A DNA stretch of 64,000 nt from Cliona cf. orientalis (lineage: Eukaryota > Porifera > Demospongiae > Clionaida > Clionaidae). The translations under genes and the position numbers were made by a program. This document shows positions 41,569-60,538 of this stretch, piece by piece. The notes under the pieces were generated by a model. The model was given only the letters and a program-made list of their open reading frames with translations, did not search any database and was not told where the DNA came from. The stretch covers positions 7,128,006 through 7,192,005 of the forward strand of contig OZ005693.1 in the NCBI GenBank assembly GCA_963930775.1. The letters are read 5' to 3'. The number at the start of each line of letters is the position of its first letter. The first letter of the stretch is position 1.

Positions 41569-42501
41569 GAGAAAATACCCCCAAGTTTGCCACGATGAAA
41601 TTTACAGTTCAGTAGAGTAATTTTTGTATTATCATGACAGGAATGCTTTGATACTGTTATCCCAGTCGAGTGGTCCACTGAGAGATGGAAACCAGTTGCA
41701 TGCATCATCCCAAAGTTATCTCTCAACCTCATCACTGAAACTATTTCCTTAGAAATAGTATAGTTGTACTTTAATGTGTACAAGTTGTATATCAATTACA
41801 AGCACCCGAGTTTAAAATACCATTTGAAGTTGAAATACTATCTGACTTTGTATTAGCCTATGATAGTAAGCTGGTATGTTAAATTTGGGGTACTCTGAAA
41901 TAGGCATTAATTGTACTCACTATCACTCTTACAATTTTTTAAACCAAAATTTAATATGTACCAATTTCACAGTGCTATTTTATCCAAATTCAATGTATAT
42001 ATACAACCTTACTATTATACAAATATAGGATGGTAAACACATTTTATGTTGCCACACAGTGTGCATGTAATTGTTGCTGTTTCACTGTGTCTCATACACT
42101 TGTGGAGGTAAAGATCGGAGTCACTATCTGAGAGTTCTATACAAGTATGTTTGATGGGATAATGTGGTTAGTATGCATTAGCTATTAACAGTATATAAGC
42201 TCATAATATTATGCTCAGAGAAATCTAAACAGTATCATCACACTAGCTGGTACGTCAACTGTTAGTATAGTGCGCATTCACAGCAGCTGCTCAAACTCAC
42301 CACTGCAATAGTGACATTGTTACTCTGCTCGAATGTTGATAAGCTTGATATATAAACTGCTGCCTAGCAATAATCCTAACCACAGGCAACAATTTTAAGA
42401 GTTTGTACAGAAATTTTAAGTTTATTTTGAGCTTTTTACAAGTTTATATTGTGGGAAATAGATATCTGCTCCTGACCATTACAACTAGGATCTAATGTGT
42501 G
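41569..42501. other. Intergenic
   Basis: AT-rich, with no exon or recognisable element seen. Confidence 0.4.
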
Positions 42502-45500
42502 TTAGTGTTGGTTAGGAGGTTCCTTTGGAGATACAGTCATTGGTGAGTCAAATAGGAAGCATATTTCAGCCAGAGTGTCCACAGCAAAGCTGGAGTAATC
42601 AACCTGGACCTTGTTCCTATCATTGCGCAAAAGGATATTCACTGCAAGGATGAACAAGGCAATGACACCATAACAATATAATGGGCCTTGCATTATAATT
42701 TTGGACCATTAGGATCTCAAGTAAGGACACCATTTTAATCAGGACACTTCATGATTATTGGTCCAAGGGTATCACTCTCTATGCTGCTGGGAGTACTGAT
42801 TAGAAATTCGATGTCGTTCTTGGACTCCAGTTCCACCATAATGGTATAGGCATACTGTAGTGTCCCAGGTAAGTGTCAACATAACCGTGATTTTGGCCCG
42901 CATGGGTGCTTAACCAGGATCAAAATTCCACACATTTGTATAGAAGCTGCTACAGTGATTTAATTTTTTGGCCCATAACACTATTCTCAAATGCTCAAAA
43001 ATCCCTAATAATGCTCAAGAAGTGCACCAATACATTGCCCATTAAGCTCAAGTTGAACTGACTATTATGTTAATAAAAATCGATATGAGACATGAGGAGA
43101 CTTGGTTACACTATCGTTGAGTGTAGTCATTTCAGTTTTACATGTGCTTGGATTCGAAATAATGACCAGTCCATAATATGCAGTCCAGGTGTTGTGACAA
43201 AGGTCGATTATAACAGCTACTTGCAATTGTGTGCCCTAAATTCTCAAACTTATGCCAGTTGATGCCTATAATGCTAGCATATTATTCTCAAATGCTTACA
43301 CATACAATGTACCTATTATGCTCAAAAGTATGCCGGCATAATTTAACAGTGATCCCTTGAAAAGGGGTACATGGGGACACTATGGCAAGTGTATATAAGA
43401 GGAGGGAGAGAGAGTCTCCTACTTCCTATTGCTGTGTGCAAACACCCTTTGCCAAGTGCAGAGGTCAATGTGGTCAGCACTACATAAACGTTACCACAGA
43501 CCAGTACAGGTGCACAATAGGTAGTAGGATACTCTCTCTCCCTCCTCTTATATACTCTTGACTATGGTAATAACAATATTCTTATCAAGGAATTCGAAAA
43601 CATCTGACTCAGTGGTGGATGGGATTACCTGCGCGCGAGCGAGCCACTCCTGTTCCAAGCGATATCAAAGATTATCAACCTGTTTTCAGTCCAGATTCAT
43701 GCCAAGGTGAGCCCTAGCAAGTCTCTTAGGATAATGATAGATCAATTACAAGACTATCAGGCACAAAGGGGGTTTCATTTCAATGAAACCCCTCTAAATC
43801 CACCACTGCAACTCACTATAATTAATATGTATAAATGGCATGTTGATAGAAAAACTAAATTTAGAACGGTGCTTACCGGCAGTTCCAGCCCTGAGCCCAC
43901 TGATCATGTCTGTCTTGTCATCTCCTACCACCACCACCTGGCTTGGCTGCAGGCCCCACTGCCCACAGATATGGAGCACTGGGGCAGGGTGAGGTTTACA
44001 CGGCTCAAAGTCACGAGTTACCACCTAAGGTACATTATGAAATCATCATTAGGTCATTGGTCTATCCTCCAAAACTCTGGATAGCGGGAAACTTTGAGGG
44101 AGGAAACATTCGTGGTTCAGTGAGGAAGCTAGCATTGCACAAAGAAAAATTTCCCAGATTGAATTGTATATGTGTACATGTACAATGTCCTGTAGATAAG
44201 TGTAGCATACCGATTCTATGGAGAAAGATTTTGCGGGTGGCTCCCAAACTGCACAATTTGAAATAATTGCCTTTCAATAGGAAATTCATGCATCATTCTT
44301 GTATATCTAATCATTTAGCGGATATTTTCTCGATCCCTATGACAAGCTTAAGTATCATAGAGTCGGTAGACTCTATAAGTAGGGATGGCCCGGATATGCC
44401 ATATATGTAATACATTACAAAAAAGTAAATAACTCAGAGCAAATAAAATGCTAAGATTTTTAACTTTCATATTCATAATCTACATCAAAATACCTATCTA
44501 TCAAGACCCAAACCGTCCATGGAAACAATCGGGTATGCCTGAACCAGCTGTGTAAAGAAATCATAAAAAATGCAAAAATCTCAATCTTCTTGTCTTCTAC
44601 TTTTCTCGGGCTAACTCGATATTGCCAGGACTTCTCACCTTAGCTTGAGTATAAATCCACTCCATTTTGTAGCGCGCACGTCTGTGGCACACTAGTTTAG
44701 TTTTATCAAGACAGCGATTTAATCGTGGGCGTGTACAGCGCATTCTGCGAGTGGGTGTGACTGATTCGCCATTTTGTCATATAATACGCATGCTCAGAAT
44801 GTGTTGCCATGGTGATTGCCGTGCGGTCATGTGACTGTAGTCAGCGGCGCGCGCGACGTTACAGGCCGGCCAGTCCAGTAGTACAAGGCGCTACGTAGCT
44901 AGCTAGCTAGCTAGGCTAAGTGCGAGCGCTAGTGCGCTGGTGGCTAGGCTAGCGCGTACACTGCGCTGATTCGATCATGAATACAAAGGTTCAAGGAGCG
45001 GCCATTCCTTGGGTGGTCACTCAGCAGTCAGTCAGCTCAAGAAGAGTATCATCGCTACTAGGTCTGACAGCTTCTTTGTCAGCCTGCCTAGACACAGGGG
45101 CGTGGTTACTGATTTTCCGCGCACGCGCGAACTTTGGCACCTAGCTACTGAAGTACACTGGAGTTGAATGAGCAAACCATGTAAGATGGCATTCAGTGAT
45201 GAATTACCCTGAAAACAAAAAAAGGAATAGAAACAAGTATAAAAACAATTGAAAGAATTGATGGATGAAGTAGGGATGGCAGGGTCAAAAAGTATACAAA
45301 CAAGATTTGTAGCGATAACTGAATCCACTATACATCCCTACACTTGCTTTTTGAGTAGCTATATGCATGGGGAGCAAAAGTAACCGGTAATAATGAGATG
45401 AATCAAAACTGAGCCATCAGTGATAGGGGACAAAATTTCTCCCACATGTAAGTCTGGATAGCACGAACAAGTCAACACCAATAGGTACATGATAAGCAAG

Positions 45501-48309
45501 CGTAGGGATGTATAGTGGATGCAGTTATCGCTACAAATCTTGTTTGTATACTTTTTGACCGTGCCACTTCATCGATCAATTCTTTCAATTGTTTTTATAC
45601 TTGTAATATTATAGTTTTATTCACAAAGATTAGTGTTAGTTATCATCAGATGCTAACCTGGGAAAAGATGGAATCACTCTGAAGGAAAGGGTAGAGATTC
45701 TGTTTTTCTGAAAGACTCGCTGCTAATCTTTCCAAGAATACTTTAGTTGCCCTGGTTGAATTTCTAGTCATTACAGCTCGCTGGATATCTCTTTCTGCAA
45801 GATAGTGCAGTAGATCCAACACTCCAGGTTGTAGCTGCATAGTAGTGAATGGGTGTGTTTATGTATGACATTATGTAACAGTGAGTGGGCTAGGGAGGTG
45901 AGAGGCGGAGGGAGAGGGGGGGGGGAGTTGCAGTTATTTGATGGTTAGGCTAACCTGCAGTTTTCTCAGTCCATCCTCCTCATATTCCTCAATGATAGCC
46001 ATGGCCTTAGCTCTTTCCTCTGTTGAGTATTTTTGCACAGTCGGCAGAATATCAATGCCTGGTGCAAGACCCAGACTATCCCGTATCCCTTTGAAGTCCA
46101 GCACTGGTAGAGTCAGTGTGCCATCCATGTCAAAAATCACTCCCTTAATTTCCGTCAGTGGCTCATCTTGTGACTGTGGTTTAGTTGAAGATGCTTGCTC
46201 GCCGTCGTCTTTATCTGAAGAATCTTGCTGATGTGTCGCAATTGTCTTGGTAGTTGCCACTCGCCTGTAGAGTATCTTGGAGAGAGTCTTTTTCTGTTGT
46301 TTTGTGGGAACTGGAGAATCCACATCAGACTCTGTGACATGTACATTCCAAATTACATGTATGCATGATTATGTAACATGCTGAAACCACCACTCACTGC
46401 ATGGTCTTTCTCGTTTCACTGGCTTCTTTTCACTGTACATACATTTATGCTTAAAATCAAGAGCATAAGTGATATTCAACTCTCACTTGGAATGCTGACT
46501 CAGCAGTTCCTTCTGTTTCTGAAGGTTAGCTTCATTGTACTTTAATACCTTGGACTCAGGAAGCCAGCTATCATTACTAGCATAGTCATATTATATGAGA
46601 AAAAAGTTTCAGATTCAAGAATTATCATGTACTACTAAGCTACACATACTGTAATTGCAAACTGAACATGACCCTGGGGCGATGATAGATAATACCAGTG
46701 TACGAGGAGTGCAGTTGTTGCAAAATGATCAATTTTTGGACACTGCTTACCATAAATGTCTCAAAGCCAAGCCAAACATTCTCTGAGGGCTTCAAGACAA
46801 CCTCTATGACGCCTTCAAACCTTGACCACAAATGATCTTTTTTATGCTCAACAGCATTTCTTGCATTCTTTTTCTTTCCTCAAATATCAGATAAATTCTG
46901 AATTACCGTATTTATTTGAATACTAGCCGCGGCTACTATTGCTGTAGTGTGGCTACTATTTGTTTCGCAGAACTTCTTGTGCAATTACTAGTCGGGGTGT
47001 GCTTCTATTTGAATAAATATAGTATTATTATTAGTTCATCTGTAACTTGTAATAGTCGAATAAATACGAGAAAGGTGATAAAGATGGATTCTGAGGACGC
47101 TCTAGAACTGCACGTCATTCTGGGGGCGTATCTGATGGTTCCTACAAACATAAACATCAAATGGATACTATACTGTTGAAATATATTTTTTGCCTGACAT
47201 TTGATACAGAAAAGGAAGAATACACGCATGTACAGGCAATGCTAGTAAGTGCAAATGGTCACCTATGGTCAAGGTTTGGAGGTAGACAACCAAGTACGTA
47301 GTTTTGCACTGGTCCATTTTGATATCTGACTCTGCTTCTAGACACCTATAGCGCCGCAAGTGCTGTCGACAAATGCAGTCTTTGTATACGTACACAGTTG
47401 GTTCTAGCAGAACATCAACAAAATGCAACATCATTCCAACAGCACTTTCAGTTTGCAGTTAGTACATAATATTATACGTGGGTGGGGCTATATCAGCATG
47501 CAAGATCAACGATTGTAGCAATTTCCATTCACCCAAACTATAGGAGGAGTCCACGCAAAGGTGTGAAGGAATTTTAATGATATGCAAATGATATTCAGCA
47601 CCCTTTCAGGAAGTTCTGGCCAGGTTCCTGTCACGCCCATTGGTGGGAATCAAATGTATTGCGCTCTATGCGAATAGCGTGCGTTTTGGAGGCTGCACAG
47701 AGCTTCAGGGTAGGTACCGAAAAACGACGCTAGCTACGACACTCTAGGGTGCCGTACACTATGTAGCTGAGGCGCTTTTTTGAGAGAGCAACTATTTGCT
47801 TGGCTAGCATGATAAATGCATGTTATTCCCATAGAGCGTAATACATTCGATTCCTACCAATGGGCGTGATAGGAACCTGGCCGGAACTTCCTGAAAGGGC
47901 GCTGAATATCATTTGCATCTCATTAAAATTCCTTCACACCTTCGCGTGGAATCCTCCTATATTGGTGTCTGAATAACCCTACCCCTCGACTGAACTTGAA
48001 TCTGAAGTATAAATCCTGGATACGTAAAGACGCTTACCTTTCACTTCTTTCACTGCATCGTACAAGAATGTGCCGTACCCCATCCTTCACCTCAGTCCTG
48101 AGTATCTGAATGTGTATAGGCCATGAACACACAGACTATACTCTACATACATGCACCACAGCCATCTGGTTAGTATTTAATATTGCAAGTCATACTATGG
48201 AGATTATAGGTAGATAATTTCATGCCGAGTAGCACTATTTCCCCACCTCTCCTTCGAAGAGAAGAGGACCTTCGAAGTACAGCACCCTCTCTCCTTCACA
48301 AAAAGCCAT
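42502..48309 (-). CDS. Chromo barrel (MRG15-type)-HAD phosphatase fusion, 365 aa, eight exons
   Basis: Exons are 48309-48247, 48105-48038, 46576-46487, 46432-46398, 46331-45955, 45834-45658, 44024-43877 and 42641-42502. All phases agree and the sum is 1098 nt. Residues 1-75 equal an MRG15 chromo barrel (MAFCEGERVLYFEGPLLFEG, then [20 protein letters not shown]). Residues 76-145 are a basic then acidic linker. Residues 147-350 are a HAD hydrolase of the phosphoglycolate-phosphatase-like group: motif I DMDGT (153-157), motif II T234, motif III K280, motif IV GDDKTD (304-309). HAD enzymes hydrolyse phosphate esters through an Asp nucleophile, here D153. The chromo aromatic cage is lost (F18, C38, R41, N45). 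The start aligns with that of MRG15. Transcription of the junction needs RNA evidence. Confidence 0.82.
42850..43390. mobile_element. GTGTCC-family element with an inner insertion
   Basis: The left part (actgtagtgtcccaggtaag...) is at about 42854-42960. The right part (ttgaaaaggggtacatggg, ending cactatgg) is at about 43354-43386. A ~390-bp insertion separates the halves. It lies in the last intron of the fusion gene. Confidence 0.5.
43391..43557. mobile_element. 167-bp inverted-repeat element
   Basis: The arm tatataagaggagggagaga and its complement (tctctccctcctcttatata) enclose about 90 bp. The arms are about 40 bp. Confidence 0.65.
45234..45605. mobile_element. 372-bp element with ~105-bp inverted arms
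   Basis: The arm at 45234-45345 (acaagtataaaaacaattga...) is repeated inverted at 45500-45605, sharing gtagggatgtatagtggat and caagatttgtagcgataac-like strings. It lies in an intron of the fusion gene. Confidence 0.75.
46904..47024. mobile_element. 121-bp palindromic MITE
   Basis: The ends taccgtatttatttgaata and tatttgaataaatatagta are inverted, with agccgcggctactatt inside. It lies in the second intron of the fusion gene. Confidence 0.7.
47540..47961. mobile_element. 422-bp foldback element with ~145-bp arms
   Basis: The arms begin ataggaggagtccacgc and ataggaggattccacgc (read from the other strand). They stay similar through gaaggaattttaatga and ggccaggttcct to about 145 bp. The whole element can fold into a long hairpin. 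It lies in the second intron of the fusion gene. Confidence 0.85.
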
Positions 48310-48963: not shown

Positions 48964-51186
48964 TTAAAGTGTGTCCATGACAATATCATTTCCAGCAGGA
49001 GCCCAATTTCTGTCAAATAAGAGTGAGCAGTTGGAGTTAAGGCTCATTGATGAGTTTACAGACTCTATTCCACCACCACGTTCAACAGCAATGTTACCAT
49101 AGAGCTGCATCGTTCCATTACACTGAAGCTCACAGCTCTCAAAATATATAGCCCCACCCGACACTTTAGCAGAGTTTCTCAAAGCCAACAGTCTACCTGT
49201 GCTAGCTACTTTGCTCATGACAGCATGAATAGCACCACCACTTATGGCAGAATTATTGATGAATACGACATACTCTCCTCCGAGGCTAAGGCTGCTGTTA
49301 ATGAGCGTCAGTGCACCACCATAATACTGTGAAAGCATATTATTATTGCTTGGGTAATAGTTGTTTCTGAATTGGGTAAAGCCAAGGAATTTGATAGTAC
49401 TATTGACCACCAGGAATGATCCCCCATTGCCAACTACTGTCGTTTGATTCATAAACACTACATTTGACTGCATGAGAACGATTATTCCTTTTTGTCCAAA
49501 ATTTGAGATAATTGAAGTATTGATCAAAGTTACTTTGCTTGTTGCTATTTCGATCACACCTCCTCTTATGGCTGAGTTGTTGGTTATCAGTAATGCATGA
49601 AGTAATAGCGATGAATTCTTCACCCTCAGTACTCCTCCAACTAGTGCTCTGTTCATTGCAAAAGCAGTTTTGGAAATGTACAACATGCTATTAATTGTAT
49701 TTATAGCACCCCCTTCAGTGTAAGCCATATTATTTATAAAGGCTGATTTGGTAATTGAAAGAAATGAGCTTGAACTTTGAAAAACAGCACCATTACTTGC
49801 TGAATTGTTAAAGAACTCACATCTCATAGCCATCACATAGCAATCCTTGTCCACACTTACCACTCCACCATTCTGTTCCACTGCATTTGATGAAATCATG
49901 CTTTCATTGACTCGAATATTACAGTTTTTGTGACAGTAAATTACTCCACCATCTATCATGGCTAGGTTTCCAGAGACCATGCTTTTCTCTATGGCAATTA
50001 AGCTGGCATTGGAATAAACTACTCCCCCTAGTTGTGCGTAAGTGCCCTTTATCAGTGTAAATCGCACTGTGACTTTTGAGCTGAAAGAGACCACAGCACC
50101 GCCACTGATGCTTGCTCTACTATCACCGATATAAGTGTTCAGTATCATCAAGGTACTGGTGTTGACAGCAAAGACTCCTCCAGTGTCTGCTCTATTCTTA
50201 ACACAGGTGCAATTGATCATAGTAACGTCTGAAGAAAAGGCATGTAGTCCTCCTCCTGAGTTATACGCACGATTGTCACTCATGAGGGAATTAGCAATCA
50301 TCAGTTTACTATTTATGATTGCTAGAGCACCCCCCAAGGAATATCCATAGTAGACATGGTTTTTGATTAGTTCAGAGCTGTCGATAAATATGACAGAGCT
50401 TACTGCACAGATAGCACTTCCACCAGCAACTGTAGTAGAGTGCGATGAATTGGCTGTATTAAAATCAAAAACTGAATTGATTATGTTAACATTGCTTTCC
50501 ACAGCGTATATAGCCCCACCAAACTGCGCCCTATTCTCCTTGAAGGTACTCTGGTTGATCATGACGTTGCTTCTACGGGCAACAATAGCTCCCCCAGTCC
50601 AGGCTGTCATTTCCCCATAACCACGTTGAAGAAGGCCACTAGTATTGTGAATACTGCCATAGAGATAAAACGAAAAGGAGCACTGGTGTATAGTGACACT
50701 CACATTGTTCACGTGAATAGCAGTTCCACTTGCTCTAATGGATGGTCCTTGAAATGCTAACCTTGATAGCGTAAGACGTTCAATGTTAGAGACCACATTA
50801 TCAACACAATGAGTAAAGAGCATGTTTTCTATGCTAGCATATTGTACCATTTGTAATCTCAACTTCCCAGATGGAGTACAGGCAATACTACTAGTACCAG
50901 CTATCATAGATGTCATAAAAAATTTCGTAGTGTTGGAAATCAGTAATACTGAATCAAGTGTGTGGTTGCCAGGTTGTAGCATCAGGGTCGTATTCTGTTT
51001 GAGGTAGGAATTTGAATTGGCAGCAAACTGTGAAAGTGTGAAGCACTTTGACACTGGCTGGCATGAAGAGATCCTATTGCTTGGAGATATTACATACACT
51101 GTGTCTCCACGGATCACTTTGGCCCGGTCAAAGACAAGCAAAGCCACCAGAAGCACAAATACGCTGTACCTCATCATGAAGGTCAC
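48964..51186 (-). CDS. Secreted beta-helix (POMP-like repeat) protein, 740 aa, intronless
   Basis: A signal peptide (YSVFVLLVALLVFDRAKVIRG) is followed by a short Cys-containing cap (SSCQPVSKCFTLSQF). Then come many imperfect ~22-30-residue repeats carrying GGAIYA/GGVVY, a hydrophobic strand and N-S-A/N-x-A turns (for example QFGGAIYAVESNVNIINSVF). This is the polymorphic outer membrane-type right-handed beta-helix, used in animals as an extracellular stalk. About 20 N-x-S/T sites fit secretion. The protein stops at GNDIVMDTL without any transmembrane segment, whereas comparable animal proteins often continue into a Cys-rich, multi-pass part. An in-frame second Met (MMRYS) is an equal start candidate. 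Confidence 0.85.
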   Translation of the reverse strand: MTFMMRYSVFVLLVALLVFDRAKVIRGDTVYVISPSNRISSCQPVSKCFTLSQFAANSNSYLKQNTTLMLQPGNHTLDSVLLISNTTKFFMTSMIAGTSSIACTPSGKLRLQMVQYASIENMLFTHCVDNVVSNIERLTLSRLAFQGPSIRASGTAIHVNNVSVTIHQCSFSFYLYGSIHNTSGLLQRGYGEMTAWTGGAIVARRSNVMINQSTFKENRAQFGGAIYAVESNVNIINSVFDFNTANSSHSTTVAGGSAICAVSSVIFIDSSELIKNHVYYGYSLGGALAIINSKLMIANSLMSDNRAYNSGGGLHAFSSDVTMINCTCVKNRADTGGVFAVNTSTLMILNTYIGDSRASISGGAVVSFSSKVTVRFTLIKGTYAQLGGVVYSNASLIAIEKSMVSGNLAMIDGGVIYCHKNCNIRVNESMISSNAVEQNGGVVSVDKDCYVMAMRCEFFNNSASNGAVFQSSSSFLSITKSAFINNMAYTEGGAINTINSMLYISKTAFAMNRALVGGVLRVKNSSLLLHALLITNNSAIRGGVIEIATSKVTLINTSIISNFGQKGIIVLMQSNVVFMNQTTVVGNGGSFLVVNSTIKFLGFTQFRNNYYPSNNNMLSQYYGGALTLINSSLSLGGEYVVFINNSAISGGAIHAVMSKVASTGRLLALRNSAKVSGGAIYFESCELQCNGTMQLYGNIAVERGGGIESVNSSMSLNSNCSLLFDRNWAPAGNDIVMDTL

Positions 51187-51689
51187 TTCGGCTTATTTTG
51201 CCTATAATTATTGAGATAGTGACACAATTATAGCTGGGAATCTTACAAACATATCATGCTAATAGTGAGTACATGATTGGGTAAACTCACCAAGTATGAG
51301 AGTAGACACTTCGATCAAAAACAAGGAAAATGGCTGAGAAGCTCTTACCAATGTTACTGCGTTGACATGTGGCTATTGAAAGTTTATGTAGTCAGGAGAT
51401 AAAACGTTTAAAAACATGAAAAGGTTTCCCAAGAATATCAAACAACAAGATGTGTTTCCCAAACCTAGAATTGATAAAGATTCTACATGCCCTAGTGGAA
51501 ACACAACTGTCAAATCAAAAAGAATAATATTGTAGGTATATATAGCTAAGTATGCATGTTTCAATTGAAACTGTCCATCAAAATATGAGTACGACCAAGC
51601 ATTCTTTGTATGTGCAGTAGGGGTGTATTAACTGCTTTGTATCCCCACTGTTGCAGTAGTACGGAGTCTGAGTCTGACCACTGGGCCAA

Positions 51690-58210: not shown

Positions 58211-60538
58211 ATGCCCCCCAAACAGAAATTTGCAGATGGTGAGAAGGTTCTATGCTACCACGGACCACTTCTCTATGAAGCCAAGGTAAGAGAAACGAAA
58301 GCTGTATGCTGGTACATCGCTCGTCTACCCATCTTTTGGGTCTCTTTGTGCCGGTGACTGTCTACTATTTATGTGTATTAAATGCTGTCCATTACTCTCG
58401 CACTAGGTACTCAAGACACAGATGAAAGACAAAGCACCTCAATTTTTCGTCCACTACAGCGGCTGGAACAAAACGTAAAAATTTATCCTTTGTGGTTGGT
58501 AATGGTCGTCATGAGACTCTTGTTGGCAGGTGGGATGAGTGGGTTCCAGAAACCAGGGTGCTCAAACACAACGAAGCCAACCTTCAGAAACAGAAGGAGC
58601 TCCAAGCCCAACATCCAGAGTGAGTGTGGTGCCCATCTGGGAATTAGGGAGCTGTTAGGATGTACATGGGTATATCTAAAGCATCATGCACAATTCTGTT
58701 GTCGAACCCTTTGATCTATATGCATAATCTAATAGTTATGGTTGAAGTATGTACAGTGGAATTTCTCAATTTAGAAGTAAATATGATGCAGGATAGTTTA
58801 TATTGTTATGCATGTGGTGGGAACCAATTGTAGTGAATGATAAATGCAGTAGGATTTGCTGTTGGGTCCCAAATTGCTGTTGCCCACGATGGTTTAAATT
58901 TGTCGGTTCGGTACATGGTTACCATGTGTACATGAATAATAATATTGTTAATTTGGCGGTCGTTAAGTAGACTGCAAACCACCAAGTTTATTTCCCTGCC
59001 AAACATTTTGGCTCTAATATTACTGTGTTGTTGAGCTGTGCTTCACATGCAATGTGCAGATTATGATTTTGCTTTTCTACAGTAAGAAGCGTCCCAAGAA
59101 GCGAGAGAGACCGAGAAGAGGTTAGTCATAGTGTTAGTAGTTATTATAAAGAGATACTGTAGTATTTTATGTGGCTGCTGCTGATTGATGCAGAAGCTGA
59201 GCCGTCAAGTGCTAGGCGCGCCAAGAGAACCAGACAAGACCACACTGAGAGCTCCACAGTGAGTACAGGAACTGTCCTACATACAATAAATAATTGTGGT
59301 GGACAAAGGATTTTCTGTACACTTTATAAAGGTTAGTATACATAATATTTCTGTGCAGCGTGAGCCCACCCCTGACCAGGAAATCAAGGTGGACATACCA
59401 GAGGAGCTGCGAAAGTGGCTGGTTGACGACTGGGATTTTGTCACAAGGCAAAAACAAGTAAGCTTATGTATACTTTTGGAGTTTAGTAATTATTATAGTG
59501 TCCATGTGTTTGTACAGTGTTGTGGCGAACATGTTTTCCCTTGTGCTTTATACCTTGTTTGTATGCTAACACAGTTCCTTTGTACTCTATAGCTTGTTCG
59601 TATACCAAAGACAGTAACTGTGAAAGACATTCTCCAGAAGTATCGTGACCATGTCTCCTCTACTGAACCAGAGAAAGCGGAGTGAGTGAGCTCATTATAT
59701 TTTGCTCTAGAATTGACCAGCTCAGCATTTACTTTTTGCTGTAATCCTTGACAGGAGTGGCCAGGTGGACGAGATATGTGAAGGTATCAAGGCTTACTTC
59801 AATGCCATGCTGGGCAGTCAGCTGCTCTATAAGTTTGAGAGATTGCAATATTCAGAGGTACATGTATGCAGCTCATCCTGAAGTACATGTAGATGATGTA
59901 GCTTGTTAGGTCAATGACTTGCATGCCTGTAGATTCTGGAGGCTCATCCTGACAAGCCCATGGCTGAGATCTATGGAGTGGAGCACCTGCTTCGTCTCTT
60001 TGGTAAGCTCTGTCCGGAGAAGTGTGGTGTGTAGTAATTTCCAGTTCTGCTTTGGCTAGCTCCGATATTATCACATGGTGTTCACTCCATGCACATATGA
60101 CTGTGTTTCCCTGTGCAGTACGGCTTGGAGCCATGCTAGGTTTTGCTCAGATGGATGAAGAGAGTATCACTCTGCTGCTATCTCATGTCCATGACTTCTT
60201 AAGGTATTCAAACTCCAATTAAATCTTTCATTGTAGTCTTTGTTCCTCTGTTAATGAAGGAGCAGGTGACCATAGTAGTATTATTATTATGATATTGTAC
60301 AAAATTTAATCCTGACTTTAGTACATTGAGACTACTGCACATGATATTGTAGCCACATGTATTATTATTATACATTCCTTAGCTGGATGCAGAATTTTAT
60401 TGTGTGTGGATTGTTTGTTAGCTTCTTAGCCTTTCTATTGCCTCTATCATTCATTCCAGGTACCTATCCGACTCCAAAGAACTTTTTACCATGGAGTATG
60501 ATGCAGCACCACAGGAGTACCACAGAAGAATGACATAA
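58211..60538 (+). CDS. MORF4L1: MRG15/MORF4L1 chromatin protein, 286 aa, eleven exons
   Basis: Exons are 58211-58285, 58407-58474, 58530-58619, 59083-59120, 59194-59258, 59359-59457, 59593-59681, 59755-59857, 59933-60002, 60119-60203 and 60460-60538. They sum to 861 nt with matching phases. Residues 5-75 are a chromo barrel with a complete aromatic cage (Y22, Y42, W45, W49), which in MRG15 reads H3K36 methylation. Then come a basic linker ([12 protein letters not shown]) and the MRG domain ([69 protein letters not shown]), which binds partners in NuA4/TIP60 and Sin3-HDAC complexes. It is somewhat shorter than human MRG15 (323) because of a short linker. Confidence 0.95.

Follow-up and report, generated by a model that had tools for sequence, protein, structure and literature searches.

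Two kinds of described protein bear on the gene reported here, which we call chromo-HAD. The first are MRG15/MORF4L1 proteins, which share with it a homologous chromo barrel, the exon phases of the MRG15 gene found in the same stretch of DNA, and a basic tail after the barrel; the differences are that chromo-HAD has no MRG domain and that all five aromatic-cage positions are altered. For this cage PMC5084153 gives H37, Y42, Y62, W65, and W69 for MRG701, conserved with MRG15 and with W65 equivalent to W49; applying the constant W65/W49 offset to the other numbers yields H21, Y26, Y46, W49, and W53 for human MRG15. ARID4-type and MSL3 chromo-barrel proteins belong to the same fold group but have other partner domains than chromo-HAD, and the MRG15 gene matches it better than they do, in both sequence and exon structure.

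The second kind is a HAD-IA group named after Arabidopsis At2g33255 (the coral protein P0020, which bears that name; P0001; P0002; and P0005, which is from the sponge Dysidea avara). Its members carry HAD motifs I–IV and a HAD domain up to 61% identical to that of chromo-HAD (P0001; 43% for P0020), and show no chromo part. In P0001, P0002, and P0005 an LYR-type leader closely follows a Met, whereas in chromo-HAD this Met is absent and the chromo part stands in front. At2g33255 itself is predicted to be chloroplast-localized and is reported to have been inactive toward the substrates tested, although it may not have been correctly folded (PMC3607736).

Chromo-HAD is best classed as a new combination of these known parts. 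No other HAD protein with a chromo part occurs among the 157 non-MRG15 proteins compared, which include 120 listed of 1130 matches in the largest search. A first-pass annotation of this DNA had called the architecture new. A search of open-access PMC text gave no paper joining MRG15, chromodomain, or chromo barrel with haloacid dehalogenase or HAD phosphatase, and none on MRG15 in the sponge Amphimedon.

Gene Structure

The window, by which we mean the whole 64,000-nt stretch analyzed, corresponds to C5:7128006-7192005 of a 216.8-Mb genome in 149 contigs. Chromo-HAD occupies eight exons on the minus strand (48309-42502; 63, 68, 90, 35, 377, 177, 148, and 140 nt), and an MRG15 gene lies on the opposite strand. 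The features are as follows.

48247..48309, minus strand: exon 1, with the ATG and the start of the chromo barrel (MAFCEGERVLYFEGPLLFEGE); GT donor; homolog of MRG15 exon 1, phase 0
48038..48105, minus strand: exon 2, middle of the chromo barrel, 68 nt; AG/GT sites; length and phase as in MRG15 exon 2
46487..46576, minus strand: exon 3, end of the barrel and helix, 90 nt; AG/GT sites; length and phase as in MRG15 exon 3
46398..46432, minus strand: exon 4, basic tail KKPVKRERP, 35 nt; counterpart of MRG15 exon 4 (38 nt)
46332..46397, minus strand: intron 4, the chromo/HAD junction, 66 nt; GT..AG; no AATAAA and no ATG in the exon-5 frame
45955..46331, minus strand: exon 5, linker, former leader TLSKILYRR without a start Met, and HAD motif I (DMDGT)
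45658..45834, minus strand: exon 6, with the HAD cap and motif II (MTRNS); continuous at either end with its neighbors as in P0001 and P0002, which are uninterrupted
43877..44024, minus strand: exon 7, HAD motifs III (CKPHP) and IV (GDDKTD)
42502..42641, minus strand: exon 8, HAD C-terminus and stop; AATAAA downstream at 42426
58211..60538, plus strand: MRG15 gene, 11 exons, 286 aa, cage and MRG domain intact (Pfam MRG 1.4e-53, MSL3_chromo-like 3.1e-20)

All seven introns of chromo-HAD are GT..AG, and the spliced reading of 1098 nt, stop included, encodes 365 aa with no internal stop. The three junctions between HAD exons agree with the uninterrupted proteins P0001 and P0002. The first-pass annotation had reported these coordinates, the open 1098-nt reading, and a HAD domain with DMDGT and GDDKTD, and all were confirmed; its description of five exons carrying the chromo barrel applies to exons 1–3, which are homologous to it, while exon 4 encodes the basic tail and exon 5 HAD-side sequence.

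Chromo Barrel and the Neighboring MRG15 Gene

Residues 3–72 of chromo-HAD are identical to the MRG15 of the window at 36 of 70 positions (BLASTP two-sequence comparison, E 1e-22), and the same residues match the solved MRG15 chromo structures 2efi and 2f5k at about 6e-14 (2efi 5.8e-14; PDB searched by sequence). The first four exons measure 63, 68, 90, and 35 nt, compared to 75, 68, 90, and 38 nt in MRG15, with identical phases; the shared phases, the equal exons 2 and 3, and the near-equal exons 1 and 4 had all been noted previously and hold. In an alignment with three MRG15 proteins, 28 columns are identical in all four sequences. Pfam nevertheless gives chromo-HAD only 16.4 bits for MSL3_chromo-like, against a cut-off of 28, and no Tudor-knot match, vs. 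72.4 and 63.3 bits, respectively, for the MRG15 gene of the window; a plain domain search would thus miss the chromo part because of its divergence. The MRG domain (PF05712) had no Pfam match in the chromo-HAD protein.

The aromatic cage is changed at all five positions, to E13, F18, C38, R41, and N45 (H21E, Y26F, Y46C, W49R, and W53N in human numbering), while the MRG15 of the window keeps all five residues, as do P0046 and P0048 in the alignment. Given these changes, chromo-HAD is quite likely a cage-less non-reader that would not bind H3K36me in the usual way, and its chromo part may instead serve folding, targeting, or protein contact. The label “MRG15-type” that had been given to this barrel is therefore apt by descent and probably not by function.

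The evidence supports homology of exons 1–4 to the 5′ exons of MRG15, which lie inverted about 10 kb away, and the gene at 58211-60538 is the presumed source. Two other possible donors were considered and set aside. Among nine candidates in the genome, the only one passing for PF22732 (on C16) looks ARID4-like by eye, and a tblastn search with MRG15 gave no chromo part in the 9.9 kb surrounding another MRG gene, on C7. The C16 locus (C16:693817-693993) is of some interest in itself, as a chromo barrel with aromatics like those of a working cage, beside an ARID-like ORF as judged by eye; it is probably of ARID4 type. The C7 gene (C7:24883-25212) has a divergent MRG domain.

HAD Domain and Related Proteins

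Chromo-HAD is a predicted HAD phosphatase by domain and motifs. Pfam HAD_2 matches at 4.3e-18 and the solved HAD structure 2ybd matches residues 144–322 at 1.9e-22 (PDB searched by sequence). What we take to be motifs I–IV, with the names and roles usual for HAD proteins, are DMDGT (153–157), TRNS (234–237), CKPHP (279–283), and GDDKTD (304–309). The HAD-IA label rests on relatives, as P0001 and P0002 pass TIGR01549 (HAD-SF-IA-v1). We found no second copy of the HAD part in the genome, all seven initial candidates having been scored; since seven of the eight genomic matches to chromo-HAD fall in its own locus and the eighth is exon 3 of MRG15, chromo-HAD appears to be the sole version. A further HAD fusion was seen in P0035 (510 aa), for which PF08543 is listed together with HAD domains.

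Protein searches returned 56 proteins, 2 proteins (scored on residues 1–130), and 120 listed of 1130 matches, for 159 distinct proteins. The search scored on residues 1–130 gave two MRG15 proteins only, and among these 159 proteins only P0046 and P0048, both MRG15, have the chromo part. Many of the related HADs have a start Met shortly before an [RK]-x-L-Y-R leader, often in the form M-SSG-R[IF]LYR and in others MA-[RK]F[VL]Y or MAAxKRTRFLYR. An [RK]xxY leader motif precedes the HAD motif in 62 of the 159 proteins, and the rest are truncated, lack the motif, or come from other organisms; P0078, named Em0001g927a, presumably an Ephydatia muelleri name, has no LYR leader at all. P0078 and the Dysidea avara protein P0005 are in keeping with a sponge origin of the genome, and many of the other HAD relatives are presumably sponge proteins too. 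In nine leaders examined, net charge over 30 residues was +2 to +4 with 0–3 acidic residues, a composition from which we infer a resemblance to a mitochondrial presequence.

In chromo-HAD the leader motif falls at residues 104–109, within a linker (residues 85–143) that finds 7 of the 159 proteins in a phmmer search, five of them with DSPVPxKQQ. Nine of the 62 leader-bearing proteins belong to this linker group, defined by similarity and not by a tree, and 53 lie outside it. The exon-5 extension is present in P0079, P0081–P0083, P0085, P0093, P0100, and P0102, at 56–91% identity in the aligned stretch, and includes sequence upstream of the usual start such as ESDVDSPVPTKQQ in P0079 and P0081–P0083. 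The leader Met is missing from chromo-HAD and from six of the nine linker-group sequences, a coding stretch preceding the leader instead. Because database readings start at Met by construction, Met was counted only where the reading extends upstream of the leader motif by more than 10 residues: a Met within 10 residues of the motif occurs in 12 of 12 such sequences outside the linker group vs. 2 of 8 inside it (P0093 and P0100), or 2 of 9 with chromo-HAD included. P0087, a linker-group member too short for this count, starts at a Met near the old start. The residue after the leader Y is R in 44, H in 6, Q in 2, and K in 1 of the 53 sequences outside the group, and R in 4, S in 4, H in 1, and Y in 1 of the 10 formed by the group and chromo-HAD.

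All eight sequences that reach the conserved E/G of the linker have T, A, or S before it, which, as read from amino acids, would fit a conserved NCAG acceptor. Together with linkers read past the old start, this suggests that an upstream coding exon is probably common to the linker group. The extension itself is probably shared and old, although the upstream exons of the relatives need not encode a chromo part. Chromo-HAD is probably more than a purely local novelty, for in the relatives, too, the HAD exon reads on in frame ahead of the usual start and has a splice acceptor that is compatible. Outside the linker group, P0018 has ESDVPSPV ahead of its own MSSGSRFLYR start (residues 1–23), resembling ESDVDSPV in the chromo-HAD linker. 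Contig searches for the relatives' DNA gave at least 27 loci, all titled bacteria, and none of 30 stretches on viral contigs was confirmed; neither set was used.

Proposed Origin of the Fusion

The reading that we consider reasonably probable is that chromo-HAD is a real chimeric gene, in which the 5′ end of MRG15, copied in inverted orientation, is spliced through a 66-nt intron into a HAD gene. Under this reading, the duplicated MRG15 end would have become exons 1–4, encoding the chromo barrel and its basic tail, and these would be spliced to the first HAD-side exon. The start codon of the HAD gene, which opens the presequence-like leader in relatives, would have been lost, and the chromo part would now form the N-terminus of the phosphatase. 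Homology and inverted orientation, two elements of the original proposal that the 5′ half of MRG15 was copied in front of a HAD gene, are well founded; the direction and the event of copying are no more than plausible. At the DNA level, an alignment of the two loci at E < 0.001 covers only 62 nt, in exon 3 (79% identical), beside which 27 nt of non-exon sequence match at E 0.005. A motif common to chromo-HAD and MRG15 was rejected as a mark of recent copying because P0046 and P0048 carry it too.

An unlikely alternative, exon capture, would have the MRG15 copy supply the HAD gene with only a promoter, a start codon, and 5′ exons, the chromo fold being a decaying passenger. The loss of all five cage residues that are intact in the window's own MRG15, P0046, and P0048 would be expected of such a passenger, as would the fall in Pfam score from 72.4 to 16.4 bits, and with the score under the cut-off and the cage lost the chromo part may indeed be a relic. 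However, the four exons are free of stops, and their length differences from MRG15 (12 and 3 nt) are both multiples of three; the 28 columns identical in chromo-HAD and three MRG15 proteins also argue against free decay. Between the chromo parts of the two genes pS is 0.76, with synonymous sites saturated, and pN is 0.26, whereas neutrality since the duplication with equal branch rates predicts a pN of at least 0.45. At the lower bound of divergence, again with equal branches, neutral change would be expected to introduce about 3 stops into the copy and to leave 18 of 70 residues identical, in contrast to the observed 0 and 36. A shorter neutral phase (0.3 per site) is compatible with simulation, since at least 36 identities were retained in 59% of runs, 7.6% being additionally stop-free. 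A simpler neutral simulation (mean 2.8 stops and 24.8 of 70 identities, with none of 5000 runs reaching 36) was discarded, since constraint on the MRG15 branch kept it from being a clean test. By this rough estimate the chromo copy would have been at least partly constrained.

The join of the chromo exons to the HAD exons is considered next. Exon 5 has no Met from its acceptor to KILYRR and none in frame before DMDGT, and its first in-frame ATG is the M of DMDGT, a start that would drop the nucleophile Asp. To yield a HAD protein, this locus must therefore draw on a coding exon farther upstream. Exon 4 lies 66 nt away and its end phase is the one required by exon 5, so a splice between the two can be proposed and a fusion transcript is very likely. 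An improbable alternative is a pair of genes, a short chromo-only gene ending before 46332 and a HAD gene using another, unrecognized upstream exon or promoter. Intron 2 is long (1461 nt), leaving room for an unrecognized exon, and contains an AATAAA (46916) that could end a chromo-side transcript. Against this, only 66 nt lie between exons 4 and 5, introns 3 and 4 have no AATAAA (the other occurrence is in intron 6, at 45621), exon 5 lacks a usable in-frame start, and exon 4 fits it in phase. An assembly error joining two loci between exons 4 and 5 is extremely improbable, as two unrelated pieces would have had to come together, at a distance of 66 nt, with phase and splice sites in agreement; the extension of exon 5 in other sources supports the linker as coding and says nothing on the chromo join.

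For a chimeric chromo-HAD, the burial of the leader and the gain of the basic tail KKPVKRERP might direct the protein to the nucleus instead of an organelle. Judged from these two sequence features, such a shift of location is conceivable, at somewhat less than an even chance. It is a more doubtful proposition still that in a clade of sponges the sole HAD phosphatase, once of organelle type, became nuclear and chromatin-associated when a duplicated MRG15 chromo barrel was spliced ahead of it, and that the barrel, having since given up methyl-lysine reading, would be a dedicated targeting or docking module. The locus offers a clear and testable example of gene birth by local duplication and exon sharing, with an enzyme exchanging its leader for the head of a chromatin protein. 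If the protein is nuclear, an early animal lineage would have tied a small-molecule-type phosphatase to chromatin and reused a chromo barrel without its methyl-lysine pocket.

Two further observations concern the surroundings of the gene. By eye, intron 2 contains a seeming inverted repeat resembling a small transposable element (~47560-47940, minus strand). Adjoining chromo-HAD is an ORF of 742 residues (48964-51192, minus strand) with repeated GGAI/GGVI-type motifs.
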